Shown here: positions 3,009 to 23,599 of the stretch, piece by piece
Numbering within the stretch: the stretch's first letter is position 1
Layout: each line of letters starts with the position of its first letter
Assembly: GCA_019058515.1 (NCBI GenBank)
Contig: JAHPYY010000167.1
Coordinates: forward strand, 1-34,626
DNA: 34,626 nucleotides
Origin: Promethearchaeota archaeon
Lineage (GTDB): Archaea > Asgardarchaeota > Lokiarchaeia > Sigynarchaeales > SOKP01
Direction of reading: 5' to 3'
Notes under the pieces: model-generated
The model's input: only the letters and a program-made list of their open reading frames with translations
What the model was told of the DNA's origin: nothing
The model's database searches: none
Translations under genes and position numbers: made by a program

Positions 3009-4076
3009 ATGACAGATATCAATAAAGAATTGAGTAATTTTCTCGTAAAAAATTTCGTTTCACTACAAGATTTAATTATTGAAAAGTATAAAGAAGCACC
3101 TAAACAAGATACTTCATCCAGAGCTGTATTACCTGTTAAAGATCTATTTATGTATCTCGATCTTCACTTAGCCTATATCGTGTATGCTATCAGGCTAAAT
3201 AATAAGGATTTACTTAGACATTACATAAACTGGATAAAAACTATATTCTTTTCTAGAAAAATACCAGTAGCGGCACTATTAAAGGGTAATTTAACGATTA
3301 GAATGACACTATTAGAAGCTGTTCCTGAAAAGTATCGTGAGATTCTTAACGACTTTCTTGAGCTTGAGGAGAAAAATATGGATAATATTCAAATTTCAAG
3401 CAAATCTCTTATTTCTGAGGACAATCCTTATTATGTTGACGCTAAAAAATATCTATCCTTACTCTTGGAAAGAAGCAAAGAGCAAGCTTTCATTACTATT
3501 GTGAATCTTATTAAAAGAGGAGTAGATTTGAAGGATATTTATTTAAACATATTTCAACCCGCTCAAAATGAAGTGGGACGATTATGGGAATTAAACGAAA
3601 TTAGTGTAGCTCAAGAACATTTCACATCCGCTGCTACTCAATCTATAATAGCGTACTTCTTTCCAGAGATTTTCAAGGTCACGAAAAGGAGATTAACCTT
3701 AATTGCGGCTAGTGTGGGAAATGAGTTACATGAAATCGGAATAAGGATGATAGCTGACTTTTTTGAAATGAATGGTTGGAACACAATTTACTTAGGGGCA
3801 AATACGCCTTCAATTGATATAATCAACGAAATTGAAAAAGTCCAGCCAGAAGTTGTTGCACTTTCGGCGACTATGATGACCCATGTAATTCAGTTAGAGG
3901 AGCTTATATCAAACATCATAAAGACAAATTCAAGTGTAAAAATTATAGTTGGTGGATATCCTTTCAATCTTGATCCTCGCCTTAGTCAAGAGATTGACGC
4001 AGATGGTTACGCTATGAATGCTTCTGATGCCATTAAACTTGCAGAAGTATTAATTAGTAAAAACTTAAATCATTAA
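3009..4076 (+). CDS. CarH-like cobalamin-binding sensory protein without DNA-binding domain
   Basis: 355 residues. The C-terminal half is a B12-binding module: a helical cap with the sequence W193-x9-E203-H204 (within GRLWELNEISVAQEHF), the W-x9-EH signature of CarH/LitR-type adenosylcobalamin photoreceptors, followed by a Rossmann-like cobalamin domain with E239-x-H241-x-x-G244, where the His would be the lower axial cobalt ligand, and a GGYPF loop near the end. The N-terminal 130 residues are helical and not a MerR helix-turn-helix, so it cannot bind DNA like CarH; they loosely recall RsbRD-type N-terminal sensory domains. Corrinoid methyltransfer proteins (MtaC-like) are an alternative, but they normally lack the W-x9-EH cap. 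Inferred role: light or cobalamin sensor acting through a protein partner. The GTPase operon starts 280 bases downstream on the same strand. Confidence 0.75.
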   Translation: MTDINKELSNFLVKNFVSLQDLIIEKYKEAPKQDTSSRAVLPVKDLFMYLDLHLAYIVYAIRLNNKDLLRHYINWIKTIFFSRKIPVAALLKGNLTIRMTLLEAVPEKYREILNDFLELEEKNMDNIQISSKSLISEDNPYYVDAKKYLSLLLERSKEQAFITIVNLIKRGVDLKDIYLNIFQPAQNEVGRLWELNEISVAQEHFTSAATQSIIAYFFPEIFKVTKRRLTLIAASVGNELHEIGIRMIADFFEMNGWNTIYLGANTPSIDIINEIEKVQPEVVALSATMMTHVIQLEELISNIIKTNSSVKIIVGGYPFNLDPRLSQEIDADGYAMNASDAIKLAEVLISKNLNH

Positions 4077-4358
4077 TTAATCTATATCATGAGCTTTTTT
4101 CTATCTTTTTAGTATTCTTTTCATTCAGTTGCTCATGATTAGAATTTTCGTATGATCTCAAAAAGTGATGAAATTCTAATTCATTATCAGAGAATTTTTT
4201 ATAGAAATACTTTCTTCCTGTTCTTTTTTTTGTCGTTTTCTATTTGCATACATATTTATATTTCTTTTTTTTTGATTCATTTACGGTTAAGGACATTTAA
4301 AATAAATTCTTGAAATTAAATCACACAAATAATACTTTTTTCTTGAAGATAACTAATC

Positions 4359-4874
4359 ATGTCAAATAATCAAATAAAAATACTCCTATTAGGCTTAAGT
4401 AATAGTGGTAAGACTTCAATAGTTCTTACATTACAAAAAGAAACAAATCTTCTGACTTACGCTTCGTTAAAAGCCACCAAAGGGATAAAGCGAGACGAAT
4501 TTGAAGACGATGGTACAATATACCACATATGGGATTTTGGGGGTCAGGAGCAATATCGCAAGGTTTATTTGGAAAAATTTGATACCTATCTCACGGGAAC
4601 CCAAAAAGTAATTTTTGTAATTGATGTGCAAGAAAAAGAAAAATTTAAGTTAGCTTTAAATTATTATAGAGAAATAGTTAAACGACTTGAAGATATGGAC
4701 GCCCAAATTCAGCTTTCAGTATTTTTACATAAGTGCGATCCAAATTTCGAAATTGAGGATAAAGAACTATTAGATTTGTCAGAAAATTTTTCTGAAAATA
4801 TACCTAAAAAATTTAATTTCTCGATATTTAAAACGAGTATTTTCACGGTTTTTTACAAAGTTTCGTTACAATAA
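4359..4874 (+). CDS. Rag/Gtr-like small GTPase
   Basis: 171 residues. G1 P-loop G12-LSNSGKTS-20, G2 Thr near 40 (KATKG), G3 WDFGGQ (D59-Q63), and G4 as H124-K-C-D127 instead of NKxD. The HKxD form and the FKTSIF segment after it are typical of Rag/Gtr GTPases. Rag proteins carry a roadblock-type C-terminal domain; this one stops right after the G domain, and the next gene codes a separate longin domain. The frame stays open for 12 codons past the TAA (reading FKMLEKNKTVLL) and ends in a TAA that shares one base with the ATG at 4913, so a longer ancestral protein is possible. It is the first gene of a three-gene plus-strand operon. Likely a membrane- or complex-associated molecular switch; its effectors are unknown. 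Confidence 0.8.
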   Translation: MSNNQIKILLLGLSNSGKTSIVLTLQKETNLLTYASLKATKGIKRDEFEDDGTIYHIWDFGGQEQYRKVYLEKFDTYLTGTQKVIFVIDVQEKEKFKLALNYYREIVKRLEDMDAQIQLSVFLHKCDPNFEIEDKELLDLSENFSENIPKKFNFSIFKTSIFTVFYKVSLQ

Positions 4875-4912
4875 TTTAAAATGCTAGAGAAGAATAAGAC
4901 GGTTTTGCTATA

Positions 4913-5314
4913 ATGTTTGATTTACACGGCGTTTGGATGATAGAACAAGACGGGCAAGTAATATACGAACACGAGTTTTATGTTCAAGGAAGTGAACAAT
5001 ATGATACTGCCTTACTTGGAAGCCTATTATCTCACATAAAGAAAGCTGTGTTAAATTCAAATGAAAATCAGATAAAAGTAACGGAACTCGAGGACGCGAA
5101 GATAGTTACATTAAATGATACTAAATTGGGTGTTTTAATTGTAATTAAATGTAGAAGAGACGCTGATTACTATAGAATTAATGTACTCATTGATTTTTTA
5201 CAAGAATTATATGATAGATATAGCTCAAATTTTGATGAGTTTAAAAGAGAAGTAGAAGAATTATTGAGATTTGATTCTGAATCTGCAAAGAAAACACTTA
5301 TAGAAAATATTTAA
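4913..5314 (+). CDS. Longin/roadblock-like domain protein
   Basis: 133 residues forming one small alpha/beta domain. The start (FDLHGVWMIEQDGQVIYEHEF) gives a beta hairpin with a G turn; then comes a helix (LLGSLLSHIKKAVL), more strands (IKVTELEDAKIVTL, LGVLIVIKC) and a long C-terminal helix ending in acidic and basic residues. This is the order of longin-type domains found next to small GTPases in Asgard genomes. The gene lies 38 bases after the GTPase and 26 bases before the longin-GTPase-PAS gene, implying co-transcription and possibly a GTPase-binding or dimerisation role. The fold is inferred from the pattern only; a roadblock/LC7 fold cannot be excluded. Confidence 0.6.
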   Translation: MFDLHGVWMIEQDGQVIYEHEFYVQGSEQYDTALLGSLLSHIKKAVLNSNENQIKVTELEDAKIVTLNDTKLGVLIVIKCRRDADYYRINVLIDFLQELYDRYSSNFDEFKREVEELLRFDSESAKKTLIENI

Positions 5315-5340
5315 TTTCTATACTAAATTGGTGCATTTGA

Positions 5341-7470
5341 CTGAAAACTCTGATTCTTAGCCATTTTGATAATTTTTATGGACCAAAAATATTCCTATTT
5401 GCGCCAAAAACTATTGATGTTAACGAATATGAACAAATTCCTTCGTTAATGGATCTTTACGAGGAAGGCTTTTTTGTCCATATATTTAAAGGGTTTAAAA
5501 GCGCAAATCTTATTTTTAACATAGAAAATCCAAATGCGAGAGGAGGAACGCAGGTATTACTTGCCTCAATAGTAATTAAGGAAGGAGACATAAATCTTAA
5601 TTTATCGGAAGAATTATTAACCCGCTTTGCTAACGAGTTAGAGGGAATTGACAGCGGTTATAAAGCGTTTCAGTCAAATACAGAATCTGACGATATAGCA
5701 CTTCAGAAAAAATCGGAGTTTAAAAGTATTTTTTCTGCGTTTTTTAAAACATTTCCAGAGGAGAGTATTAATGTTAAATATCAAGATGTTAGCGTGTTTT
5801 TTTTCGGGCTTTCTGATGCCGGTAAATCAACTGTACTAAAGAGTATACAAAAGACGAAGGATATGCGAACGCTTCCAACTACTAATGTCGATGTTTCTAG
5901 AATATTCCTTAATAACCTATCGATATTAGCTTACGACACTCCTGGTCAGTCAAAATTCAGAGATCTTTGGACACCCTACATCAAAAATCAAAACGCATTA
6001 GTTTTTATCTTTGATGTAAGCGATACGTTGAAGTATGAGGAAGCGTATGCAATATTGCATAAGATATCTAACTATCCACAGGTAATTAATTTACCACTAC
6101 TTATTTTAGGAAATAAGATTGATTTAGTAACCCCCGATATAGAAGATTTAAAGTTAAAGCTCGGAATATATGAGCTTAAGGATAGACCAATTAACTTCTT
6201 TTTAACAAGTGCTATTAATAACGAAGGAATTGTCGAAGCCTTTAATTGGCTGACCTTAAAGCTTTCTGAAGGGTTCAGCTTATCCCAAGAATCGCAAGTG
6301 GGCATAATATTTAGTAGCTGGGACGATTCTCTTGGATTAGAAATAAAGGCTATGTTTCCTTTTGACGCATTCGAAGACCCTGATGTGATAGCAATACGAT
6401 GTTTCTCAATCTCCCAGTTCATATTTGGGGGTAAGCGTTTTGAAAAAGTATCTTTTATCCTTCCTTTTACGCATCTTAACGCTAAAGCAGCTATTTTTTT
6501 TGATTTCATTCACGATAAAAACACCCGAGGTGGCTTACTCCCGATTTCTTTAATCATTTTCTTAAGCGATAGAATTCCAAATGCGATAATAGAAAACTTT
6601 AACAATTTTATATTTGAGAATATAAGCAACTTAAAAGAGCATCTCAATGATAAAGCTTCGATAATAAGAGAGCTGGAAAACATTTATAATTCAGTAATAT
6701 TATTGATGAAATTGTTTAAACCAACCATAGATGTACTCAAAGACGCAGAATTACAATATCGTTCGCTATTCAAAGCTGCACGCGATGCGATTTTTATTAT
6801 CGACAAAACCACTGGTATTGTTATTAATATAAACGAACAAGCGAGTAAATTACTCCTTCGCCCAATAGACGAGATAATTGGAACTCATTTAAGGCAACTC
6901 AAAATTACAAGGGCTTATGGTGCAGCTAGACAACCAGTTCTTAACCCCGATCAATTATCTTTTCCTGCAATAATTACAGCAAGTGTGAAAAATTCTGATG
7001 GAAAAGAAATACCGGTTGAAATTAATACGAGTCCTGTGAAGGATGGCAAACAAAATGTGATTCTCTGCATACTAAGAAATATAACTAGACGAAAAGAAGC
7101 GGAGTACAAATTAAAAGAGTCTGAGAGTAAATATCGCAACATCTTTATGAATTCTCCCATTTCGACGATGGTAATCGACCAACATGGTCAAATTACTGAT
7201 TGTAATCCAATAATCGAACAGCAATTAGGTTACAAGACCGGAGATTTTCTTGGGAAAAATTATTCTGAGCTTGAGATTTTTGATCTTAAGGATTTAATGG
7301 TGCCAATTGCTCAAATTAAATCGGGAAAAGAAGGAAGCGTTTTACCCATATTAAAAACGCAATTAAGAAAAAAAGATGATTCGCTAGCTTGGTTCAATCT
7401 TCAATTTTCATCGTATAAGGTAGATGAAGAATTACACATTTTATTATTGTTGACGAGAGATTCACAGTAA
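5341..7470 (+). CDS. Longin - small GTPase - longin - PAS - PAS fusion protein
   Basis: From the first in-frame ATG (5449) the product is 673 residues, but the frame is open back to a TGA at 5338-5340 and the 36 extra residues complete the first longin strand (LKTLILSHFDNFYGPKIFLF). I therefore place the start at CTG 5341, seven bases after a GGTG. Numbering from ATG 5449: longin-like 1-75; G domain with P-loop G120-LSDAGKST-128, DTPGQ 163-167, NKID 222-225 and TSA in the G5 region; second longin-like domain about 285-415; PAS about 428-545; PAS about 555-670. No kinase, cyclase or HTH output is present, so the GTPase itself may be the output of PAS sensing. No PAS cofactor can be read from the sequence. 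Last gene of the GTPase operon. Confidence 0.8.
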   Translation: MKTLILSHFDNFYGPKIFLFAPKTIDVNEYEQIPSLMDLYEEGFFVHIFKGFKSANLIFNIENPNARGGTQVLLASIVIKEGDINLNLSEELLTRFANELEGIDSGYKAFQSNTESDDIALQKKSEFKSIFSAFFKTFPEESINVKYQDVSVFFFGLSDAGKSTVLKSIQKTKDMRTLPTTNVDVSRIFLNNLSILAYDTPGQSKFRDLWTPYIKNQNALVFIFDVSDTLKYEEAYAILHKISNYPQVINLPLLILGNKIDLVTPDIEDLKLKLGIYELKDRPINFFLTSAINNEGIVEAFNWLTLKLSEGFSLSQESQVGIIFSSWDDSLGLEIKAMFPFDAFEDPDVIAIRCFSISQFIFGGKRFEKVSFILPFTHLNAKAAIFFDFIHDKNTRGGLLPISLIIFLSDRIPNAIIENFNNFIFENISNLKEHLNDKASIIRELENIYNSVILLMKLFKPTIDVLKDAELQYRSLFKAARDAIFIIDKTTGIVININEQASKLLLRPIDEIIGTHLRQLKITRAYGAARQPVLNPDQLSFPAIITASVKNSDGKEIPVEINTSPVKDGKQNVILCILRNITRRKEAEYKLKESESKYRNIFMNSPISTMVIDQHGQITDCNPIIEQQLGYKTGDFLGKNYSELEIFDLKDLMVPIAQIKSGKEGSVLPILKTQLRKKDDSLAWFNLQFSSYKVDEELHILLLLTRDSQ

Positions 7471-7520
7471 AATTCACTAATTTAAAGCACGCATTTTCTA
7501 TTTTTTTGGACTATTTCTTA

Positions 7521-7541
7521 ATTGAGAATATATATATTCCA
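7521..7541. repeat. 21-bp duplicated element, copy 1 (palindromic core)
   Basis: The element holds the perfect palindrome GAATATATATATTC (7525-7538) with identical flanks to the copy at 9708-9728. It sits about 50 bases after the stop of the PAS-fusion gene. Downstream on the plus strand only an 11-codon ORF (ATG at 7577) is seen, so here the element has no clear gene to serve. It may be a regulator site, or a TATA box left over from a duplicated promoter. Confidence 0.6.
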
Positions 7542-7632
7542 GAAAGTCTTCTAAAAGCTCGCAGAACGGGAAATGATATATCTTACTACAGATTTAGAAG
7601 AAATCTAATAAATAGTTAAGCAAATAAAAAAA

Positions 7633-7887
7633 CTAAAAAATGGTTTTAAGAAATTCGAGGGAAGGGCAAGTGGACTTGGTTTCTTCGCCATATAGCTTGC
7701 ACGATTTGTGTATCTGTTTAAGCTCTTCTCTCATAGATTCTAATTCCTCTCCAGAAAATTCCCAAAAGTCTTCGATCAACACATAAAACGAATAAAAATT
7801 GATGTTGGTGTGACAGATCCTTATAAACTCTCGAAGCTTCTCAATAGTCTCTCACTGAAACTTGAGTTTATCGCTTTTTCCATCCAT
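7633..7887 (-). pseudogene. Small unrecognised gene with an in-frame TGA at codon 12
   Basis: On the minus strand a frame starts with ATG (7885-7887), reads MDGKSDKLKFQ, meets TGA at 7852-7854, and continues ETIEKLREFIRICHTNINFY to a TAG at 7633-7635, 84 codons in all. The part after the TGA is rich in helix-forming and charged residues and contains three cysteines (RICH, HKSCKL, STCPS), so it looks like real protein. There is no good start just after the TGA; later GTG or ATG codons would remove the first helix. Most likely a small inactivated gene. Readthrough is possible but unsupported. No family is recognised. It lies in an otherwise empty 620-base stretch, opposite in strand to its neighbours. 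Confidence 0.4.
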
Positions 7888-8089
7888 CTCTACTTTCACT
7901 ATAATTAATGATTCTGATTATCAAGAAAAAATTATAAATAGAGGAGATTTAAATAAAGGAGATTTAGATTATTATATTATTACTATCAAAATTCAATTTT
8001 TTGATATTATCAACTTCCGACAATAGGTAATTAAAATTAATTCTGATAAAATCTTTTACTTTTCATTAAATCTTGTATATACAGTAGTT

Positions 8090-9172
8090 TTGGTTTTTCT
8101 TTTATCAACCTTTTTGTATAAAAGAAGCAAAAAAAACCAATCTATCCCTCATTTAACAGTTGCTGTGTTTTTTTCATTACTTTCTAGTATTTCATATTTC
8201 CCACAATTTATCTTATCAAATCATCCTTTATCAATTGAAATACTGCTATTTACGGATAATATTGGTTTAATTTTCCTAGTTTTTTCATTTTTTGCAGTAT
8301 TTTTGCATTATGAAGCACTTTCTTCTCTTAAACCAGATCTTCGGCGCTACACTATAATTATCGTTTTTGGAGTGGCTGCTTTAACTACAATTCTTATAGA
8401 ATTTATTATTTCTTCCGCAGAATTAAGTAAGATCAACTTATTGAAATTTTTCATTGGTGATATATTTGGTTTATTATGTTTTACATATCCATTAGTAGTA
8501 AGTGTGAAAATAAATAAAAGAATAAAAGAGAGAGCCGCTCAGATCGAACTTTTTTCAATTATTGTGATTCAACTAAGCAATATTTTATATTTCCTAAAGG
8601 ATTTAGCTTTCATCTTTAATCTCACTTTAGACCCTTTATCTCTTGAAATATTTAATTCAGCTGATGTTATTCTGTTAATTGGTATAATTCTCTTAATTAG
8701 CAATTATATAATTCATAGTAATTATATCTATCTGCTTCCATTTCCTATTCATGAATTCTTTATTATTAATAAATCTGGTATCGTCTCTTATCATCGACAT
8801 ATATCCAATATCAATTTAACTTATTTTCAATCTACAGATAGATTACTTATCAGTGGAGTTATTAAAGCGATTTCATCATTGATTCCCCAAATTCTTGATA
8901 CTAGCGCTCAGCTAAGATATATTGATGCAAAATCGTATAAAATTCATTTATCTCATATTGCCAAAGAAAATGTGATTATAGCTATTGTAGCCTCTAGGAT
9001 TAATTATTATCTTAAAAAGTCTCTAAATCATTTTAAAAATTCCATTACCAAAGAAACTCTAAATAAAATTCAAAATACGATCATAATTGACAGGGATCTT
9101 TATAAGCAACTTGATAAAATCCTTCTCCGAACATTTCCTTATTTAGATATTCGAAGGGAAAATATTGAATAA
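8090..9172 (+). CDS. Seven-helix membrane protein with C-terminal longin-like domain
   Basis: About 360 residues from TTG 8090. Hydrophobic helices lie at about 22-42, 50-74, 87-107, 115-140, 149-177 and 187-209. A further helix spans the N-terminus and needs residues upstream of the TTG: the frame is open to a TAG at 8024-8026 and reads DKIFYFSLNLVYTVVL before VFLL, so a non-standard start such as ATT 8030 is likely. Residues 215-360 form a soluble domain (FFIINKSGIVSYHRHI, then LLISGVIKAISSL, YKIHL, ENVIIAIVASRINYYL, C-terminal helices) with longin-like order. The layout is a seven-helix sensor with a cytoplasmic domain of the kind found with small GTPases. It is 620 bases after the PAS-GTPase gene, on the same strand. 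Ligand and partner are unknown. Confidence 0.65.
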   Translation: MVFLLSTFLYKRSKKNQSIPHLTVAVFFSLLSSISYFPQFILSNHPLSIEILLFTDNIGLIFLVFSFFAVFLHYEALSSLKPDLRRYTIIIVFGVAALTTILIEFIISSAELSKINLLKFFIGDIFGLLCFTYPLVVSVKINKRIKERAAQIELFSIIVIQLSNILYFLKDLAFIFNLTLDPLSLEIFNSADVILLIGIILLISNYIIHSNYIYLLPFPIHEFFIINKSGIVSYHRHISNINLTYFQSTDRLLISGVIKAISSLIPQILDTSAQLRYIDAKSYKIHLSHIAKENVIIAIVASRINYYLKKSLNHFKNSITKETLNKIQNTIIIDRDLYKQLDKILLRTFPYLDIRRENIE

Positions 9173-9251
9173 TTTGTAAATATATAAGTCTAAAACAAAA
9201 TAGTACGAAATAGGGGCGTTCGTATGTAATTATAGATTTTAAGATCATGAT

Positions 9252-9413
9252 GTGCTATTTGTTGACAATTCCATTCCTATCTGTTCAAAAAAGTGGAAAC
9301 AACCTTTCATAGAAGATGAAACAACCAAGTCACGATCTTTATTTCCAGATTATAAAGTAGGTATTTCCGACTCTATTAACATAATTAGAGATCAATTTAA
9401 CATAGAAGATTAA
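9252..9413 (+). pseudogene. Short unrecognised ORF, probable gene fragment
   Basis: A GTG-started frame of 53 codons with a protein-like sequence (LFVDNSIPICSKKWKQPF near the start, VGISDSINIIRDQFNIED at the end). The same frame continues upstream as GAFVCNYRF but is cut by a TAA at 9240-9242, so this looks like the 3' end of a decayed gene. A hairpin terminator lies about 145 bases downstream. The remaining sequence between 9173 and 9750 is AT-rich with no other gene visible. Confidence 0.3.
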
Positions 9414-9558
9414 ATAAAGAGAGGTTTACTCCCAACCCTATTTTTTTCTACTAGATAGAAAACAATAGAGATTTTAGAAAACGAAGAAAATTTATGATTT
9501 AATACTTATTTTTTTTTATCCTGAAAAGATGTCTTTCAATGGTATAACCTTGCCTTTA

Positions 9559-9583
9559 AATCAGAAAATCTTCTGATTTTTTT
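9559..9583 (+). terminator. Hairpin with U-tract, intrinsic-terminator-like
   Basis: A perfect 8-bp stem AATCAGAA/TTCTGATT with a 4-base loop (9559-9578) is followed by an uninterrupted T run to 9583. It would end plus-strand transcripts from the upstream region before the promoter of the gene at 9750. Archaea mostly terminate at U-tracts, so the T run may matter more than the stem. Confidence 0.5.
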
Positions 9584-9707
9584 CCTATTTTTTTTTAATT
9601 AATCCTTTCTAGTAAATAATCCTTAATTTCGATAAGTATAACGGGTTATATTTTAATACTTTTAACTTAGGATTGGCAATAGAAAGTACATATTTTTGTT
9701 TTTCTTC

Positions 9708-9728
9708 ATTGAGAATATATATATTCCA
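9708..9728 (+). promoter_or_regulatory. 21-bp duplicated element, copy 2, at the promoter of the 9750 gene
   Basis: Identical over 21 bases to 7521-7541, with core palindrome GAATATATATATTC at 9712-9725. The core lies 25-38 bases upstream of the ATG at 9750, the position expected of a TATA box for a leaderless transcript. It may therefore be the TATA element itself, an operator over it, or both. Confidence 0.5.
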
Positions 9729-9749
9729 AAAGTCATATAATAACTTATC

Positions 9750-10421
9750 ATGATAGATGATTACAAACCTATGGAACCTGTGACGATTGTTACCGACGGG
9801 ATTCTAGCGATTATGGGATTTTTATTCGCAGCGTTGCTCTTATATTATTGGTTTAAGATTGAGGGGGAGCGACCTCGTACGACCTTGATGTGGATTGGGA
9901 GTTTGATATCGACAGCGCTATTTGCGATGTTCGGAGCATTATCACACGGAATGACCTCTATTACGATTGGGGATATTTTATGGATTCCCACTTATATATT
10001 TGGAGGGGTGGCGTTCATTTTTCTGGTAACTGGGGTTATGATTTACGAAAGAGAAGAAAACTATGAAAAGCTGATAACTATACCGGTGGTCTTAGTGGTT
10101 ATTTACCTCATTTTAGGGATACTGTTGAATTGGATGTTCCTACTTTGGGTTTTCCTACTCGTGATTTGTGCTGTGGTAATTTTATTCTTTTCGTTTAAAG
10201 CTAGAAAAGATGGTAAAGAGCTAGCGAACTATCTCATTCTTGGATTAATCATTATTATAATCGCGGGAGTCGTTCAAGCTATAGGAGGCATGTTAGGTTT
10301 ATCTACTACATTTGGACCAAGTAACGAATTTCTTTTCTCGCCACATAACGACATCTTTCACATCATCGCTATATTTGGAGTTATAGTGCTTTTTATTGGA
10401 TTTAAAAAGGAATTATCATAG
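9750..10421 (+). CDS. Seven-helix membrane protein, DUF6962-like
   Basis: 223 residues with seven hydrophobic helices at about 14-34, 46-66, 76-98, 107-127, 128-148, 158-181 and 200-220. Sequence marks: EPVTIVTDG before helix 1, GALSHG at the end of helix 2, and HNDIFH entering helix 7. This set (EPxTxxTD, GxxHG, NDxFH) matches what I recall of the DUF6962 family, whose function is unknown. Paired histidines in helices 2 and 7 recall CREST-type membrane hydrolases (alkaline ceramidase, PAQR), where they bind zinc, but that link is speculative. No Schiff-base lysine is evident in helix 7 (IAIFGVIVLFIGFKKE), so it is not a rhodopsin. The start is ATG 9750, with the duplicated palindromic element just upstream. 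Confidence 0.6.
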   Translation: MIDDYKPMEPVTIVTDGILAIMGFLFAALLLYYWFKIEGERPRTTLMWIGSLISTALFAMFGALSHGMTSITIGDILWIPTYIFGGVAFIFLVTGVMIYEREENYEKLITIPVVLVVIYLILGILLNWMFLLWVFLLVICAVVILFFSFKARKDGKELANYLILGLIIIIIAGVVQAIGGMLGLSTTFGPSNEFLFSPHNDIFHIIAIFGVIVLFIGFKKELS

Positions 10422-10473
10422 AATAATTTTTTTTCTATTCCTTTATTCGCAATCGGAGGACAGTTAATAAAAG

Positions 10474-11220
10474 TTAAGGATAAAAAATTCTGTAAAGCTC
10501 CCCGTAAATCTCAGCAAGTTTAGAAATCATTTCAAAATCGTTTTGGGAAAGGTAAAAAGAGATATAACTCGATAAACCGTTCGGATCTCTTATCCATTGT
10601 AAGAAGCTTTCGATCTCAACTCTTAAATTTGGATCAATTGATGGATAGGTTGGTGTTACTTCTTGCGACATCGATATTGTTCCTAAAGTTTCACTAGTTC
10701 CCCTTGTTAGTTCCTCAGAAACTTCTGTAATTTCCTCTGTTTTTTTGCCTTTTTTCTTTTTCTTCTTATCTTTCTTTTCTTTTTTCTTTTTCTTTTTCTT
10801 CGAGACTTTTGATTTAGGGCCTAAATATTCGATTTGTGCTCCTTTTTTCATAGCAGCTGCAGCTCTAGCAACTGTAGGATAAGCCATATGAAACCATCCC
10901 TTTGCTTTGTGGTTTATATGAGCAACAACGAAGATATCTTCATCAGGTATTGCTGCACCTATTAAATGTCCCTTATCTTGGCGATTTGTTGCAATGAATC
11001 GTTCAGGTTCCATTTGAAGAATTGAGTAACGAATTCCATTCAAGGTAACAGATTGTGCCGTGACGCTCGCCCAACTTTTTAAAACTGCGCTTATGTCGCT
11101 TGTGACATCCCAATTTTGAGTTGAATACATTATTTTCCCTGTCCTACTTACAACAACAACATGCGTGGCGTCCGAGTAATATTTCTGAAGGTCGCCCACA
11201 ATAGCTTTATAATTTACCAT
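10474..11220 (-). CDS. Profilin- or roadblock-like domain protein with poly-lysine linker
   Basis: I place the start at the ATG ending at 11220 (248 residues); an upstream ATG at 11283 would add 21 hydrophobic/basic residues. Residues 1-125 form a small alpha/beta domain: N-terminal helix, VVVVSRTGKIMYSTQNW, a helix DISAVLKSW, SVTLNGIRYSILQ, ERFIATNRQDKGHLIGAA, DEDIFVVAHI and a C-terminal helix (YPTVARAAAAM). This order (strand with a G turn and aromatic, NGIxY strand, KG-I strand, final helix) resembles profilins, including Asgard profilins; roadblock/LC7 is the alternative. Residues 136-160 are almost all lysine, followed by an acidic/Ser-Thr stretch and an aromatic-rich C-terminal helix. 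The poly-lysine could bind membrane, nucleic acid or acidic partners. Convergent with the 9750 gene. Confidence 0.5.
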   Translation of the reverse strand: MVNYKAIVGDLQKYYSDATHVVVVSRTGKIMYSTQNWDVTSDISAVLKSWASVTAQSVTLNGIRYSILQMEPERFIATNRQDKGHLIGAAIPDEDIFVVAHINHKAKGWFHMAYPTVARAAAAMKKGAQIEYLGPKSKVSKKKKKKKEKKDKKKKKKGKKTEEITEVSEELTRGTSETLGTISMSQEVTPTYPSIDPNLRVEIESFLQWIRDPNGLSSYISFYLSQNDFEMISKLAEIYGELYRIFYP

Positions 11221-11384
11221 ATGCAAGATATCTCGTAAGATTTTAAATAAAAGTTTTAAAGTTAAAAGGAAATTTCTTCCCAAACAAATTATGGAGCGTT
11301 ATATTATAAAGAGTGTTTGGAGTAGATAAAGGTTACAAGCTTTACTAAATACTGTGAGTCACGAAATTTGTTTCCTCTGTAGTT

Positions 11385-11990
11385 TTATTGTGAATTGCTT
11401 TTAAATTCAGCCAATCGCTTAATCACTTTTCGAATAGCTCTTAACCCTTCATCGTCCTTCTCGATGCCTTTTTTTCCTTGATCACGCGTCCACAAGCTTG
11501 CTCCTAAATTTGCACCAAATGCACCCCCTGAAACACTAATTACATGATTTTGCTGGAAAAAATCTAAAATTGAGCGAATTGCGATTTCTTGCCCTCCCGC
11601 CCTGTCTCCTCCGACCGCAATGGCGCAACCTATTTTATTTTTAAAAACAGATGGATTTTTTGCCACTAAAGCCCTAGTTCTATCCATAACAGTTTTCACT
11701 TGTCCTGATAAATTTCCTTGAAAAACAGGGGTTCCAATTAAAAGGTACTTAGCATTTTCAATTTTCTCATAGAGTTCTACGACATCGTCCTTATGGACGC
11801 ATCCTTGCTTTTCCCTGATACAATAATCACAGTGAATACAGAACTTAATTACCTTGCTTCTTACGGTCCAAAACTCCGTTTCGAATCCAAACTTTTGCTT
11901 AGCGTAGTTTAAAGCGTATCGAACCGCGAATTCAGTCCCTTGGTTCCGAGGGCTTCCACAGATACCTAGAAGGTCTTCACTCCCACTCAT
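11385..11990 (-). CDS. Iron-sulfur flavoprotein (NADPH-dependent FMN reductase fold)
   Basis: 201 residues. The flavodoxin-like FMN-binding start is GICGSPRNQGTEFAV; a compact cluster motif C51-x2-C54-x2-C57-x6-C64 (CIHCDYCIREKQGC) follows the second strand, as in the archaeal iron-sulfur flavoprotein (Isf) family, where it binds one [4Fe-4S] cluster. Further marks are GTPVFQGNLSG (flavin phosphate/ring loop) and the GGDRAGGQE loop. Known members are homodimers that take electrons from ferredoxin and can reduce O2, H2O2 or quinone-like acceptors; the substrate here is not knowable. The gene is divergent from the HTH regulator at 12062, with only 71 bases between start codons, which suggests shared control and possibly a redox link. 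Confidence 0.8.
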   Translation of the reverse strand: MSGSEDLLGICGSPRNQGTEFAVRYALNYAKQKFGFETEFWTVRSKVIKFCIHCDYCIREKQGCVHKDDVVELYEKIENAKYLLIGTPVFQGNLSGQVKTVMDRTRALVAKNPSVFKNKIGCAIAVGGDRAGGQEIAIRSILDFFQQNHVISVSGGAFGANLGASLWTRDQGKKGIEKDDEGLRAIRKVIKRLAEFKSNSQ

Positions 11991-15587: not shown

Positions 15588-16688
15588 ATGGAAATATCAA
15601 AGATTCCGATAAAAAATCGAAAAGACGAGCATATATTTTTGGTAAGCACAGAGGATGTTGAATGTCACGATACAACATGGCTCGAGTATGTTAAACTCGT
15701 GCACAATACATTGCCAGAGCTAAATTTAGACGACATCAATGTATCATGCGAATTTCTTGGAAAATCGATAATGGCACCTATTTTTATAGGAGCAATGACA
15801 GGTGGAACAGAATTAACGAAAAAAATCAATGTTTCACTAGCAAAGTCTGCTCAAAAATATCGCATCCCAATGATGGTGGGAAGTCAAAGAGTTATTCTTA
15901 AGCACCCAGAAACAAAATCTTCTTTTTCAGCTGTTCGAGAATGTGCACCTGATGTTCCTATAATCGCAAATATTGGAATAGCTCAAGTGGCTACCTCTGA
16001 TAATTTTGACTACATTGATGAAATTATTGAGAATATCAAAGCGGATGCGGTAGCTATACATCTAAATGTAATTCAGGAAGTTATTCAACCTGAAGGGGAC
16101 AAAATATTTTCTGGAGGACTTAAAAAAATTAAATCCCTAAAAGATCAGATTAAGGTTCCAATTGTAATTAAGGAAACCGGCTGTGGTATTTCTAAAGAAG
16201 TGGCACAGAAACTATTTGAAATTGGAATTAATGTCATTGATGTGTCAGGGGTTGGAGGGACCAGTTGGATTGGGGTAGAATATTTCAGGGCGAAGAAGCA
16301 CGGTGTGAAGTCCAAAATGGATTTTGGAAAGCTATTTTGGGACTGGGGAATCCCTACCGCGGCAAGTATTATTGAGGTTAGATCTGCGGTAAAAGATTTT
16401 CAAGACATATCAATAATTGGAAGCGGGGGAATTAGAAATGGCATTGATGTTGCAAAGGCGTTAAGAATTGGAGCGAATTTTGTTGCGTTAGCTCGACCTT
16501 TTTTAATGGTGGCACTAGAAGGACAAACTTCTATTGAAAAATTCATCGAACATATTGTCGGAGAATTAAAAATCGCAATGCTTCTAACAGGGAGTAGGGA
16601 CATTGAAGAACTTAAAAAAGCCTCGTTGGTAATCGGATCTTCTCTGAAAAATTGGATGGAAGAGAGAAATATAAAAATCAGAGATTAA
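15588..16688 (+). CDS. fni: Isopentenyl-diphosphate delta-isomerase, type 2 (FMN)
   Basis: 366 residues, slightly over the usual 340-355. It has the substrate-binding R11-KDEH-15 near the N-terminus, the FMN/phosphate loop GAMTGGT (68-74), GSQR at 98-101, the VSGVGGTSW loop, and the C-terminal phosphate-binding IGSGGIRNGIDVAKALRIGA plus ALARPFL of the TIM barrel. It interconverts IPP and DMAPP using reduced FMN, feeding prenyl transfer for lipids and carotenoids. It converges with the HMG-CoA synthase gene two bases away. The start at ATG 15588 lies in TTATTATG with no Shine-Dalgarno sequence. Confidence 0.95.
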   Translation: MEISKIPIKNRKDEHIFLVSTEDVECHDTTWLEYVKLVHNTLPELNLDDINVSCEFLGKSIMAPIFIGAMTGGTELTKKINVSLAKSAQKYRIPMMVGSQRVILKHPETKSSFSAVRECAPDVPIIANIGIAQVATSDNFDYIDEIIENIKADAVAIHLNVIQEVIQPEGDKIFSGGLKKIKSLKDQIKVPIVIKETGCGISKEVAQKLFEIGINVIDVSGVGGTSWIGVEYFRAKKHGVKSKMDFGKLFWDWGIPTAASIIEVRSAVKDFQDISIIGSGGIRNGIDVAKALRIGANFVALARPFLMVALEGQTSIEKFIEHIVGELKIAMLLTGSRDIEELKKASLVIGSSLKNWMEERNIKIRD

Positions 16689-16690
16689 TT

Positions 16691-18313
16691 TTAATCTAGA
16701 GGATAATTAAGCGGCTTATATGTAGGAATCCAGTTAATATACCCATTCTCTACACAGAGAGATGGTTCATTCTTTCCCGCGCGAAGCAAATTATATTCGA
16801 CGGTTTGACCTTTTTTAACATCCGCAGAAATTCTAACGATAGAGTCGGATAAAACATCATTCTCGTCAAAATCATGTGAGGGATCGGAGGTTACCACCGC
16901 ATACATAGGAAGCATCTTTTTGTAAGAGTCGTTTCTCCCTGTTGGGCAAAAATCAAGACCCTCCAATTTAGATACTAAGCACCCTTCGGCACAGACACTC
17001 ATTTTAATGAATCTATGTTCATTGGATGGGTGTGGTTTGATATTGGCATATAGGACGGTTGTAGCGTCTATTTTTTTCCTCATTTGTTCGTAGTCATTAA
17101 TGGATTTGCGCTCCTTATTTTGAATAAAGTCATTTACTGTTGGGGCTTTAACTTTAAATTCCCTAAATGAAGGTAGGACTTTAAGCATGCCCGAAATGCA
17201 GGTTGCACCTGAACCATAAGAGCCAAAATAGATCAAATCGTTCTCGCTTACAACGCTTTCCAACATATATATTAATTGAGCCCATATAGACGCAGAATAC
17301 ATGTTTCCGATCGACATTGGCACATTAAGCGCAGGCAACACTTTATTTGAAAGGCTTTTTGTCAATTCTACTTTAAGCGTATCTGTATCGTGCATATTTT
17401 CCGTGTTCTTGATAGCCTCTAGGACAGTTGTAAGCAAATCTTCTAAGTATTCGCAAGCTTGTTCGTGAATTTTAGCGGAAATAGAAGCGGTTGTCGCATT
17501 TCTAAGCAATATTTTCTTAAGAGAGTCCCATCTATTTAATAGAAGGTTTTGTACATTCTTTAAAGGTAATTTAGCAAAGGGAGAGTGGAAAACCATATAA
17601 TCTGGTAAAATATTTCCTGCGTGCTTGTAGAAGTCATCAAATGCACCTAATTGAAATTTAATATAGGAATTAATCGAAAATTTGCCGTACACAACAGGGT
17701 AATCTTCATATGGTAACCTATAAAAATCGTAGACATTGGCAGAATATTTACCAAATTTTTTTCCAAAAACAGCAATTCGAGGGTTCTTAGAAATTACTAA
17801 CGCCGTTGCTGCTGCTCCTTGAGTAGGTTCTCCTGGGCTTTCCAGTTTGTAGCTACAAATATCTGCGCCAATTATAAGGGCTTTGTGGATTATTCCGTTA
17901 TTAATTAATCCTACAGCGTTTAAAACTGCGAGAGTTGCACCTGCGCATGCATTATATACATCTTGCGTAACGCAGTTAATTGAAATACCCAGAATTTCCG
18001 AAATTATGTTAGAAACCGATTTTACGGCGTATGTCATTGTTTCTGTCCCTAGAAAAATCGCATCAATTTCTTCTGGAGCAATATTACCTTTCGTCAATGC
18101 ATATTGACCCGCTTTTACTGCCATACTTACGATATCTTCTCCCTGAGCCGGAATACGCATCTCTTTTGTGAGAAGACCCTTCAAATATTTATTCGGGTCC
18201 ACATTTCTAACTTCTGCTAATTCTCTGAGATCAACATAATATTTTGATGTATAAAATCCCATTGAATCGATTCCGACATTAAAGAAGAAATCGTCTTTAT
18301 CTGAATCATTCAT
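16691..18313 (-). CDS. Hydroxymethylglutaryl-CoA synthase
   Basis: 540 residues. Catalytic residues in family context: E91 in GTETMTYAVKS, nucleophile C123 in VYNACAGATLAV, and H243 in MVFHSPFAKLP. It condenses acetoacetyl-CoA with acetyl-CoA to HMG-CoA, the first committed mevalonate step. Archaeal enzymes are usually about 350 residues; this one is nearer or beyond eukaryotic size, because of an insert after the catalytic His (about 250-330) and about 100 extra C-terminal residues with three cysteines (VCAEGCLVSKLEGLDFC). The usual archaeal thiolase and DUF35 partner genes are not adjacent. It follows crtZ on the minus strand by 15 bases, so the two are probably co-transcribed. Confidence 0.9.
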   Translation of the reverse strand: MNDSDKDDFFFNVGIDSMGFYTSKYYVDLRELAEVRNVDPNKYLKGLLTKEMRIPAQGEDIVSMAVKAGQYALTKGNIAPEEIDAIFLGTETMTYAVKSVSNIISEILGISINCVTQDVYNACAGATLAVLNAVGLINNGIIHKALIIGADICSYKLESPGEPTQGAAATALVISKNPRIAVFGKKFGKYSANVYDFYRLPYEDYPVVYGKFSINSYIKFQLGAFDDFYKHAGNILPDYMVFHSPFAKLPLKNVQNLLLNRWDSLKKILLRNATTASISAKIHEQACEYLEDLLTTVLEAIKNTENMHDTDTLKVELTKSLSNKVLPALNVPMSIGNMYSASIWAQLIYMLESVVSENDLIYFGSYGSGATCISGMLKVLPSFREFKVKAPTVNDFIQNKERKSINDYEQMRKKIDATTVLYANIKPHPSNEHRFIKMSVCAEGCLVSKLEGLDFCPTGRNDSYKKMLPMYAVVTSDPSHDFDENDVLSDSIVRISADVKKGQTVEYNLLRAGKNEPSLCVENGYINWIPTYKPLNYPLD

Positions 18314-18328
18314 GATTATTTAAATTTA

Positions 18329-18829
18329 TTAAGTGGGTTTTACATATCTTGATAAAGTTTTATATTTTTTGGGGGCGTAGAGAAAACCAAATGAATAGCC
18401 TGGTCCCTTCGCGTTAGTAGATTGATGATGATACGAATGAGCGTTAAATATCCTTTTCATGTACCCTTTTTTGGGTCGATATGTATTTTTTATTCTTTTA
18501 TGAAATAACACATCATGGAAGGCAAAGTATCCAAAGCCATAAAGTGCGACCCCTAATCCCATCCAGAGGAGGAAATTTTCACCAAAAAATCCGATGAAAA
18601 TTAGTATAAAGGATAATGCGGCAAAAAATACTGCGAAAAGATCATTCTTTTCAAATCTTCCCTCGGTGTATCTATGGTGATCTTCGTGTAGGTACCAACC
18701 AAATTGGTGCATCACAAACCGATGGAGAAACCAAGCTACACCCTCCATAGAAATAGCACTGAGAATCATAATTCCTATGTTTAAAATCAATGCTAGCGGA
18801 AATGGCATGAAATTATAAAAATTTACCAT
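18329..18829 (-). CDS. crtZ: Carotenoid 3-hydroxylase CrtZ
   Basis: 166 residues from the ATG ending at 18829 (a TTG seven codons further up is possible). The histidine boxes of the CrtZ/fatty-acid hydroxylase group are all present: HRFVMH, HEDHH, FHDVLFH and HSYHH, which bind two irons. Hydrophobic segments precede each pair of boxes, so it is an integral membrane enzyme. CrtZ hydroxylates the beta-ionone rings of beta-carotene to cryptoxanthin and zeaxanthin, using O2 and reduced ferredoxin in characterised members. An O2-dependent step is notable if the organism is an anaerobe. First gene of a minus-strand pair with HMG-CoA synthase; divergent from crtY. Confidence 0.93.
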   Translation of the reverse strand: MVNFYNFMPFPLALILNIGIMILSAISMEGVAWFLHRFVMHQFGWYLHEDHHRYTEGRFEKNDLFAVFFAALSFILIFIGFFGENFLLWMGLGVALYGFGYFAFHDVLFHKRIKNTYRPKKGYMKRIFNAHSYHHQSTNAKGPGYSFGFLYAPKKYKTLSRYVKPT

Positions 18830-18997
18830 AATCGATACTTGATAAAACAAAATTGAAAATAAAATTTTGCCTTATACAATATTTGCATGCTTTAGATAAG
18901 ATGTTCTATTGATCGTCATCTACATACACTAGAGGGAGTATATCTTCTTTGGTAGGAACAAGAACCTCCTTATATCTCTAATAAATTATATAGCCAA

Positions 18998-19010
18998 AGT
19001 ATATAATAAA
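18998..19010 (+). promoter_or_regulatory. TATA-like box of the crtY-crtB-crtI operon
   Basis: AGTATATAATAAA lies 21-33 bases before the ATG at 19031, good spacing for a leaderless transcript. The whole crtZ/crtY divergent region (18830-19030) is about 200 bases and also contains an imperfect inverted repeat around GGAACAAGAACC (18955-18966) that could be a regulator site. Confidence 0.4.
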
Positions 19011-19030
19011 AATTCCTTTATTAGCATTTG

Positions 19031-19762
19031 ATGTGGTTCTATTACCTCTTAGTAAATTTACTTATTATCAGTTTTCCTCTTACCGCTTCCTTTGAAAAAC
19101 GAATTCAATATTACAAGAAGTGGAAACCCTTACTTATGTCGATACTAATCGTTAGCTCTATATATATCGTATGGGATGTATCAGTAACATACATCGGGCA
19201 TTGGAGTTTCAATCCTCTATACATCTTTGATTTTCATCTACTTAGCTTGCCCTTAGAGGAAATTTTGTTCTTTATAACAGCCCCATACTCCTGTATATTC
19301 ATTTACGAGGCAATTCTTTACATAATTGGAGACACGGAGCTTCGCTTCAATAAGTACTTATACACTGTAATTGGACTTATTTTTATTGGAATATCTTTTA
19401 TCTTCGTAGTACAAGGGTACACTTTTATTGTGCTTAATTTTGTCGGTGCGTTCTTTATCATCGCTTCTTGGTTGTACCCCCATATTTTAAAAGCCAGAGC
19501 TTATTGGATGTATGTAATCATCACGATTATTCCGTTCTTTTTCACTAACTATATCCTAACCTCAGTTCCCATTGTATTATACAATCCCGAAGCTATTTGG
19601 GGAATTAGAGTAATTACTATTCCACTAGAGGACTTTTTCTACAACTTTTCGATGCTTTCGCTCTATTTAATGGTATATTTATATTTCAAAAAAAAATGGC
19701 GAGTTGGAGCTAACGGGAAGAATGCCTCGGTTGAGATCGGAACTAATCGGTTTGAAAATTAA
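19031..19762 (+). CDS. crtY: Lycopene cyclase, CrtYcd type (fused two-domain)
   Basis: 243 residues from ATG 19031; a TTG directly before it is less likely. About seven hydrophobic helices. The PLEE motif of the first CrtYc/CarR-like repeat (LPLEEILFFITAP, about 74-86) recurs as IPLEDFFYN in the second half, so both halves of the heterodimeric bacterial cyclase are fused, as in haloarchaea and fungi. It forms beta-ionone rings on lycopene to give beta-carotene. First of three plus-strand carotenoid genes, with crtB 92 bases downstream. The gap holds an A/T-rich stretch and could contain a second promoter. Confidence 0.9.
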   Translation: MWFYYLLVNLLIISFPLTASFEKRIQYYKKWKPLLMSILIVSSIYIVWDVSVTYIGHWSFNPLYIFDFHLLSLPLEEILFFITAPYSCIFIYEAILYIIGDTELRFNKYLYTVIGLIFIGISFIFVVQGYTFIVLNFVGAFFIIASWLYPHILKARAYWMYVIITIIPFFFTNYILTSVPIVLYNPEAIWGIRVITIPLEDFFYNFSMLSLYLMVYLYFKKKWRVGANGKNASVEIGTNRFEN

Positions 19763-19854
19763 AAAATGGTAAGTTCTCAGCATAGCAATGGAACGAATTA
19801 TTAATAATTTTAAAACACAAAATATAAAAAAATTAAAATTTATCACACAATAAT

Positions 19855-20682
19855 ATGGGTACCCCAATACCAGACATTCATCGTGAAGTTTTTAAGAAGG
19901 GAAGCCGAACATATTTTAACAGTAGTATTTTCTTTCCAAAGTCTGTTAGAAGAGATGTTTTCTTTTTGTATGGATTTGTGAGGGTTGCAGACGATTACGT
20001 TGATACAATACCTCAAAAACGGGAAGAATTTGAGAATTTTCGGAATTTGTATAAACAAGGGCTTTCAGGGGAGAAGACGAATAACCTTATCATTGATTGC
20101 TTCGTAGAACTAATGCAAAGAAAAGAATTTAAAGAGGAATGGGTAGATGCTTTCTTGCATGCGATGGAGTTGGATCTGACAAAAAAGATTTACAGCACAT
20201 TAGAGGAGACTCTTGAATACATTTATGGATCTGCAGAAGTAATCGGGTTGTTCATGGCCAAAATTCTGGATTTACCAGAAGAGTCGTATTTTTCTGCCGA
20301 AAGGTTAGGTCGAGCAATGCAGTATATAAATTTTATTCGAGATATTAAGGAAGACATAAAGCTAGGAAGACAATATCTTCCTTTAAGTGGTTTTGATTTA
20401 AAAAACTTGACAAAAGAAGAAACATTAAAAAAAAAGTCGGAGTTTGAAAGGTTTATCAAAGCTCAAATCGACCATTACCTTGAGTGGCAAAATGAGGCAG
20501 AAAGTGGATTTAAATTTATTCCAAAAAGGTACCTAATTCCAATAAAAACTGCATCAGAAATGTATAAATGGACCGCATTAAAAATTAGGAGTGATCCATT
20601 TATCGTTTACAAAGAAAAGGTTAAACCATCTAAGCGAAAGATAATTTCAACAATCTTAAAGTATTCAATAAAGGTAAGATAA
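19855..20682 (+). CDS. crtB: Phytoene synthase CrtB
   Basis: 275 residues, normal for the squalene/phytoene synthase family. First aspartate motif D46-DYVD-50 (VRVADDYVD) and second D162-IKED-166 in the context INFIRDIKEDIKLGRQYLP, which bind the Mg-diphosphates. It joins two geranylgeranyl diphosphates head to head into phytoene; the IRD-xx-ED-xxxGRxYLP signature favours phytoene over squalene synthase, and the adjacent crtI agrees. Followed by crtI after 13 bases, so translated from the same message. Confidence 0.95.
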   Translation: MGTPIPDIHREVFKKGSRTYFNSSIFFPKSVRRDVFFLYGFVRVADDYVDTIPQKREEFENFRNLYKQGLSGEKTNNLIIDCFVELMQRKEFKEEWVDAFLHAMELDLTKKIYSTLEETLEYIYGSAEVIGLFMAKILDLPEESYFSAERLGRAMQYINFIRDIKEDIKLGRQYLPLSGFDLKNLTKEETLKKKSEFERFIKAQIDHYLEWQNEAESGFKFIPKRYLIPIKTASEMYKWTALKIRSDPFIVYKEKVKPSKRKIISTILKYSIKVR

Positions 20683-20695
20683 GAGATTTATTAAA

Positions 20696-22192: not shown

Positions 22193-22235
22193 GAATATAA
22201 TTTTAATTGACTTCTATTAAGTGTGAAATTCGATA

Positions 22236-23399: not shown

Positions 23400-23442
23400 A
23401 CTCTCAAATGTTCTTTTTTTTAATTAAGAGATTAGGTTATAA

Positions 23443-23458
23443 TTTATATATTTATATA
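23443..23458 (+). promoter_or_regulatory. TATA-rich promoter between the HMG-CoA reductase and decarboxylase genes
   Basis: TTTATATATTTATATA is the strongest TATA-like run in this divergent region. It is about 11-26 bases before the small ORF at 23469 and about 45-60 bases before the HMG-CoA reductase start on the other strand. Which direction it drives is not decidable from sequence alone. Confidence 0.4.
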
Positions 23459-23468
23459 AAATAACACA

Positions 23469-23552
23469 ATGGTTGAAAAATTACACATACCTCAAGAAAA
23501 GGATTTAGCCCCACTAATAAGTCGTTTCATTGCTTATCGCGAAAACCGTTGA
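23469..23552 (+). CDS. Putative 27-residue small protein
   Basis: ATG to TGA, 27 residues, with protein-like composition (KLHIPQEKDLAPLISRF then an R/N-rich end) and an amphipathic helix in its second half. A TATA-like box lies just upstream, and the decarboxylase start is 47 bases downstream. It could be a micropeptide, a leader ORF, or the remaining 5' end of a lost gene. Not recognised. Chance occurrence is possible at this length. Confidence 0.3.
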   Translation: MVEKLHIPQEKDLAPLISRFIAYRENR

Positions 23553-23599
23553 TAGTGTAAAAATGATTTTTTTAAATAACACTAATTATTAGTACTATT

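Follow-up and report, generated by a model that had tools for sequence, protein, structure and literature searches.

Rag-like GTPases of Asgard archaea encoded beside membrane sensors and longin-type proteins

Does a run of six genes in an Asgard archaeon encode one sensory GTPase pathway, or is only part of it a conserved system? The run lies at positions 3009 to 10421 of a 34,626-nucleotide stretch of a Promethearchaeota archaeon (contig JAHPYY010000167.1, assembly GCA_019058515.1), referred to below as the window. The initial annotation read these plus-strand genes, among them a Rag-like small GTPase, a longin protein, a GTPase with PAS domains (PAS-GTPase) and a seven-transmembrane protein ending in a longin domain (7TM-longin), as a signalling route whose output would be GTPase state. 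Open reading frame and Pfam analysis confirmed all six genes with named domains and amended two of their starts. The association that recurs across genomes centres on the Rag-like GTPase, whose family members usually have one or more of three kinds of gene directly next to them: a gene for a membrane sensor, one of longin type, or one for an ArsR-type helix-turn-helix (HTH) protein. We consider it close to certain that a conserved receptor-linked Rag-like GTPase module exists.

The GTPase family and its operons

Relatives of the window's small longin were first found directly beside a Rag-like GTPase, and the phylum was then searched with the GTPase alone, using 227 genomes from the phylum of L002, a Lokiarchaeota metagenome-assembled genome. 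Genome presence counts and copy numbers are lower bounds throughout, with the best candidates per genome scored. The GTPase profile (A3, 1e-40) returned 89 matches in at least 59 of the 227 genomes. Our census comprised 74 distinct GTPases, 73 chosen by GTPase similarity plus that of the window; 16 of the 89 matches were left out (12 weaker than 1e-45, two in frames longer than 240 amino acids, G158, which fell below the cut on rescoring, and G159). The GTPase-longin pair also occurs in at least one of the rows left out (G084:C3, L215).

With adjacency defined as a system gene no more than 350 bases away and in the same orientation, we found a partner for 70 of the 74 family members, for none of 15 other small GTPases in the collected loci and for none of 30 GTPases from a separate search of 20 genomes (20 of 155-211 amino acids and 10 larger fusions). 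Some control loci end before any neighbour, and the two control sets may overlap. Fisher's test gives p 1.5e-28 for 70/74 versus 0/45, treating related operons as independent and the controls as alike; because related operons are not independent, the true strength lies below this value, and the contrast is still plain. The members are arranged as follows.

ArsR-type HTH, GTPase, MASE3 histidine kinase, receiver (REC) protein, full: 34/74
The same HTH, GTPase, MASE3 kinase, REC protein type, cut by contig ends: 4/74
HTH, GTPase, REC protein, without kinase: 3/74
GTPase, REC protein: 2/74
Single-pass receptor with cytosolic longin, GTPase, longin: 6/74 full and one cut
7TM-longin adjacent: 2/74 (L206: 7TM-longin, GTPase, longin; L299: HTH, GTPase, 7TM-longin)
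GTPase, longin, window included: 4/74
Other longin or REC orders: 3/74
HTH only: 11/74
No partner: 4/74, one of them L260, where an opposite-strand longin gene and then a 7TM-longin gene follow the GTPase

The initial annotation had noted that no histidine kinase or DNA-binding output is present. This fails for the family at large, in which a MASE3 sensor gene adjoins 38/74 members and an ArsR-type HTH gene 52/74. Small-longin relatives stand beside the GTPase in 14/74, window counted. In the 30 top-ranking members, a ranking based on the GTPase alone, a longin-family gene lies no more than 300 bases away in 13, and the gene directly downstream encodes a protein of 5-8 predicted helices in 16, with a PAS match in 15 of these 16. 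The type kinase operon (L222) gave Pfam matches to MASE3 (3.6e-83), HisKA (2.8e-11), HATPase_c (2e-26), Response_reg (5.5e-24) and HTH_5 (4e-12). Operon kinases retain the H-box (38/40) and GTGLGL (37/40), and the receiver Asp motif could be located in 38 of 46 REC proteins; overlapping loci may repeat genes in these counts. The near relatives G157 and G155 have operons of receptor, GTPase and longin, with a single-pass receptor in L205 and a 7TM receptor in L206. G157 also has a GTPase-REC pair (L248), and G136 has a kinase operon (L207).

The window GTPase carries the motifs GLSNSGKT (G1), WDFGG (G3) and LHKCD (G4). HKxD in place of NKxD is typical of Rag GTPases, and this pattern was found in 66 of the 74 members and went unmatched in 8. 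Pfam ranks PF04670 (Gtr1_RagA, 1.3e-22) above Arf (2.5e-19), and the L150 copy matches PF04670 at 4e-24. Against the Rag label, Arf-family chains (4.8e-18) outscore RagC/RagD (2.2e-15) in a PDB sequence search, whose top hits are two chains named only GTP-binding protein. Rag GTPases also carry a C-terminal roadblock domain in the same chain. No such domain is present in the 171-residue window protein, which stops after the G domain as its relatives do, and a separate longin gene starts 38 bases after it. A truncated gene was rejected as the explanation: the protein aligns over its full length with five operon members at 44-50% identity, and its short C-terminus ends at the same motif as theirs.

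A phylogenetic tree was built from 73 of the 74 census members and four outgroup GTPases, one member being omitted for masked residues. The family GTPases form one clade against the outgroup, with the window sequence inside it but without a resolved place. The kinase operons cluster on this tree (5 changes, versus 25.5 in shuffles).

The control loci gave an observation of their own. In 18 of the 30 (L305-L334; for example L309, 1477-2564), a different Asgard Arf-like GTPase is accompanied by a same-strand gene of 169-190 amino acids at most 53 bases downstream, often overlapping. The copies in L309 and L321 have a longin-type start by eye, and the end of the L309 copy weakly matches a winged helix (E 0.016). 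This pair is a candidate second GTPase operon.

Longin domains and membrane receptors

The predicted structure of the small longin is clearly that of a longin, with the b-b-a-b-b-b-a-a fold. Its closest folds are Sec22b, TRAPP subunits, Ykt6, AP sigma and COP zeta chains; longins rank above MglB in the list, and there is no roadblock Pfam match. By profile comparison, the small longin belongs to one domain family with the tail of the window 7TM protein. The tails of the REC proteins show no detectable relation to that family by profile; 46 of 46 match the middle domain of the window PAS-GTPase (hhalign E 3.7e-12). Seven tails gave no significant Pfam match, and no match to PDB sequences was found. 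We call this tail longin/roadblock-like solely on account of where it sits in proteins that join longin and GTPase domains. Tran et al. 2024 (PMC10933270) describe a GTPase joined to a longin domain on one side and a roadblock domain on the other.

Single-pass receptor-like proteins of about 750-940 amino acids occur in L134, L135, L143, L205 and L216-L219. Each has a large predicted extracellular part and a longin, and inspection by eye suggests that the C-terminal stretch is conserved among them. No Pfam family was found in the extracellular part of the copy searched, that of L205.

The window 7TM-longin has seven helices in its predicted structure, N-out and C-in, and the positive-inside rule (loop charges summed) gives this orientation in 7/7 aligned 7TM-longins. 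The topology (seven helices, N-out, C-in) is like that of G protein-coupled receptors, which also head the fold list of the 7TM model; homology with these is not claimed. The fold search with the 7TM part also returned LYCHOS (GPR155), titled as the mTORC1 cholesterol sensor in PDB rows, a likeness at the level of predicted fold. A 7TM-longin family member (profile A1, 1e-5) is present in at least 129 of the 227 genomes. A profile grown from the window 7TM-longin covers both helices and tail in L206 (4.8e-32), L299 (2.3e-18) and L260 (3.8e-31), which supports, at the level of sequence profiles, that 7TM-longins beside family GTPases are kin of the window's.

We tentatively assign the 7TM-longin as the receptor for the window's Rag-like GTPase, a pairing we rate as possible and somewhat short of probable. 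Many observations weigh against it. The 7TM-longins of L206, L299 and L260, the first two GTPase-adjacent, fall outside the narrow A1 profile, and none of 73 loci of other family GTPases has an A1 match. Only 2/74 family members have a same-strand 7TM-longin neighbour; some 0.2 would be expected (p 0.016, on a guess of five copies in 3800 genes). Genome co-occurrence is weak (p 0.066), with A1 7TM-longins in 89 genomes without the family GTPase at 1e-40 and 19 genomes in the reverse state. Arf/Rag-type GTPases occur in just 7 of 40 7TM-longin neighbourhoods, which we read as no enrichment. In the window itself, the 7TM gene lies 559 bases past the PAS-GTPase and more than 3 kb from the Rag-like GTPase. 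A looser control without the strand rule found a 7TM-longin beside 1 of 11 other GTPases (L047). Because they are present in 89 genomes without it, 7TM-longins cannot serve the family GTPase alone, and presumably they serve other GTPases too. At L047 (G050, 9613-11557) a 7TM-longin stands 242 bases from an opposite-strand small GTPase of another family, a candidate second pairing.

The window cluster and its surroundings

The six genes, and a repeat found between them, are as follows.

3009..4076, plus strand: B12-binding protein (Pfam and NCBIfam), neighbour gene
4359..4874, plus strand: Rag-like small GTPase, 171 amino acids (Pfam Gtr1_RagA 1.3e-22)
4913..5314, plus strand: stand-alone longin protein, 133 amino acids (predicted longin fold)
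5341..7470, plus strand: PAS-GTPase, with N-terminal longin-like domain, Arf-like GTPase, middle domain, PAS and PAS (Pfam)
7521..7540, plus strand: 20-base repeat, copy 1, 5' of the 7TM-longin gene (exact copy)
8030..9172, plus strand: 7TM-longin protein with cytosolic longin (predicted structure, 7 helices plus longin)
9708..9727, plus strand: 20-base repeat, copy 2, 5' of the DUF6962 gene (exact copy)
9750..10421, plus strand: DUF6962 membrane protein (Pfam 6.9e-16), neighbour gene

The PAS-GTPase frame is open back to a CTG at 5341, the probable start, with an ATG at 5449; the 7TM-longin start is uncertain, its frame being open to about 8030 with an alternative TTG at 8090. Successive gaps are 282, 38, 26, 559 and 577 bases, and operon-like packing is therefore limited to the GTPase, longin and PAS-GTPase genes. 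The repeat, ATTGAGAATATATATATTCC, is identical at 7521-7540 and 9708-9727 (0.03 matches expected) and is possibly a promoter element shared by the 7TM-longin and DUF6962 genes.

For the first gene, which had been described as a CarH-like cobalamin sensor, the B12-binding domain stands. A CarH-like regulator was rejected for want of a DNA-binding part: Pfam found no HTH in 3009-4076, and the CarH model scored 46 bits against a cut-off of 400. The gene ends 282 bases before the GTPase. Its profile, built from very few sequences, finds nothing in the 73 loci around other family GTPases and matched two other loci only, including L108 (G110), where a 500-residue protein lies about 5 kb from a PAS-GTPase. 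The DUF6962 profile, built from the single window sequence, matched none of the other loci collected, the 73 family-GTPase loci included. Membership of the B12 and DUF6962 genes in the module is not supported.

The PAS-GTPase has 93 homologues (P0009-P0101), up to 1126 amino acids long and present at 1e-60 in at least 23 of the 227 genomes. Those with names are Asgard records, called PAS domain S-box protein, ADP-ribosylation factor-like protein or, once, putative histidine kinase. The window copy, like P0097 and P0098, ends after the second PAS; longer homologues end in a histidine-kinase-like tail whose catalytic His is mostly lost. Among 68 homologues longer than 900 amino acids, a set that by its tail differs from the window copy, the H-box position reads N in 36, H in 14, Q in 6 and other in 2, was not found in 10, and GxGLGL occurs in 0/68; active kinases were accordingly rejected as a description of the family. 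The 73 loci around the other family GTPases also lack a PAS-GTPase match, and a role as conserved partner of the Rag-like GTPase is not supported. It may be a second, cytosolic sensor in the window.

Elsewhere in the window, an isoprenoid and carotenoid gene block occupies 15588-24688. It encodes an FMN-dependent enzyme, presumably IPP isomerase-like, HMG-CoA synthase, a hydroxylase, lycopene cyclase, a phytoene/squalene synthase, a desaturase-like flavoprotein and diphosphomevalonate decarboxylase, together with a member that we take from its sequence to be HMG-CoA reductase. This reductase is 80-85% identical to those of 6 of the 227 genomes. Two abutting plus-strand reading frames at 1106-2404 may together represent a single homing-endonuclease-like gene that has been broken; the second matches LAGLIDADG weakly (0.014). 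Convergent with the cluster, the minus-strand gene at 10474-11283 encodes a protein that matches profilin weakly (0.017) and contains a long lysine-rich segment.

How the module may work

Three front ends swap beside one GTPase family: a kinase with a REC protein, a single-pass receptor-longin and a 7TM-longin. What they share is a sensor that either carries a platform-type domain at its end or phosphorylates one. Mainly because the front ends swap, we infer that longin-type domains are the output acting on the GTPase, and direct regulation of the Rag-like GTPase by the longin seems to us a reasonably good bet. The receptor's cytosolic longin would pair with the stand-alone longin, or with itself, to form a platform that binds the GTPase, by analogy with the longin/roadblock dimers of TRAPP, Mon1-Ccz1 and MglA-MglB. 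Ligand binding by the receptor, or phosphorylation of the receiver in the kinase version, would then shift nucleotide exchange or hydrolysis, and the output would be membrane organisation, or transcription where an HTH protein is present. In the window, the likeliest receptor would be the 7TM-longin protein. Of the originally proposed signalling route, the GTPase-centred core with longin-bearing membrane receptors thus has its counterpart in the sensor operons of many Asgard genomes, L206 and L299 among them; the six genes as a unit do not.

That unit, a single pathway in which B12, PAS and 7TM inputs feed two GTPases, is improbable in our judgement. All six genes do share a strand, the GTPase, longin and PAS-GTPase genes are separated by only 38 and 26 bases, the PAS-GTPase middle domain and the REC-protein tail share a family, and a B12-match protein lies near a PAS-GTPase in L108. 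Yet the cluster recurs in none of 69 neighbourhoods, 40 centred on 7TM-longin genes and 29 on PAS-GTPase genes, and the B12, DUF6962 and PAS-GTPase profiles are unmatched in the 73 other family-GTPase loci; on this comparison the six-gene unit was rejected. Moreover, G136 and G157, the closest genomes, lack a match to the PAS-GTPase (1e-30) or the window 7TM-longin (1e-4), and gaps of 282, 559 and 577 bases interrupt the run.

A transcriptional switch is a better-placed alternative, although still an unlikely one: the GTPase would control, or be controlled by, the ArsR-type HTH protein, with sensors acting through longins as in conservons and trafficking uninvolved. In its favour, an HTH gene adjoins 52/74 members; 37 of these 52 belong to the 38 members that have a MASE3 gene, and the remaining one of the 38 is cut by a contig end. 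The small gene downstream of the different Arf-like GTPase in the control loci, with a weak winged-helix match in the one copy tested, also speaks for it. However, no HTH gene lies on the same strand in the gene runs that hold the single-pass longin operons or the window GTPase, and the HTH protein may just autoregulate its operon. Alternatively, longins and GTPase could build TRAPP- or Ragulator-like membrane complexes in which the membrane longins are anchors and not receptors, as the trafficking proteins among the closest folds of the small longin would suggest. We judge this very unlikely: a kinase and a receiver protein, as found next to members of this GTPase family, are signalling proteins, and the single-pass proteins have big predicted extracellular parts.

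Eukaryotic Rag-Ragulator-GATOR1 places a Rag-type GTPase under regulation by longin/roadblock proteins; the Asgard GTPase differs from eukaryotic Rags, which act as heterodimers of two Rag proteins, in lacking their C-terminal roadblock domain. The nearest known kind to the module of swapping sensors described above is the actinobacterial conservons. As described in PMC4316618 (2014) and PMC13343842 (2026), these G protein systems (CvnA-D) likewise join a sensor histidine kinase, a roadblock-type platform and a small GTPase in one operon. The Asgard module differs from them in its Rag/Arf-like GTPase, in a longin where conservons have MglB, in the added receiver-domain protein and ArsR HTH, and in longin-bearing 7TM or single-pass receptors that can replace the kinase. 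The window cluster itself has no sensor histidine kinase and no roadblock match by Pfam, and has a longin instead; full kinase operons belong to 34/74 family members. The MglA-MglB polarity module also sets a small GTPase beside its own platform-domain regulator, with response regulators feeding in (PMC4316618, PMC9481161), and differs in using a roadblock, not a longin, and from the membrane receptors fused to a platform domain seen here.

For Asgard archaea, PMC10933270 reports Rag-like GTPases and longin/roadblock fusions to GTPases and states that the role of Rab and Rag proteins is unknown. It adds that in MK-D1 the small GTPase genes as a rule share no operon with genes for roadblock, longin or TRAPPC3 proteins, and that the genome layout makes pairing GTPases with regulators difficult. 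Unlike that general pattern, one Rag-like subfamily here sits in longin operons with receptors. The word GTPase occurs 0 times in an archaeal two-component census (PMC5847659) and in an Asgard sensor-kinase study (PMC10343646), and among the papers listed by searches within open-licence PMC, preprints excluded, no description of this sensor-GTPase system was found. Relative to those papers, we regard the module as a new form of sensor-GTPase operon, with a receptor class, a membrane protein ending in a longin, that none of the searches showed as described.

The furthest-reaching possibility is that this is Asgard receptor-to-G-protein signalling, in which receptor longins would act as direct guanine nucleotide exchange factors or GTPase-activating proteins and from which eukaryotic Rag nutrient signalling, possibly also 7TM-G-protein logic, would descend; we hold this to be a long shot. 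PMC10933270 notes that neither the regulators nor the roles of the many eukaryote-like small GTPases in Asgard genomes are known. Gene order now pairs one Rag-like subfamily with partners, namely sensors, longins, receivers and HTH proteins, and the origin of eukaryotic GTPase regulation becomes a question of small protein pairs that can be purified and assayed.

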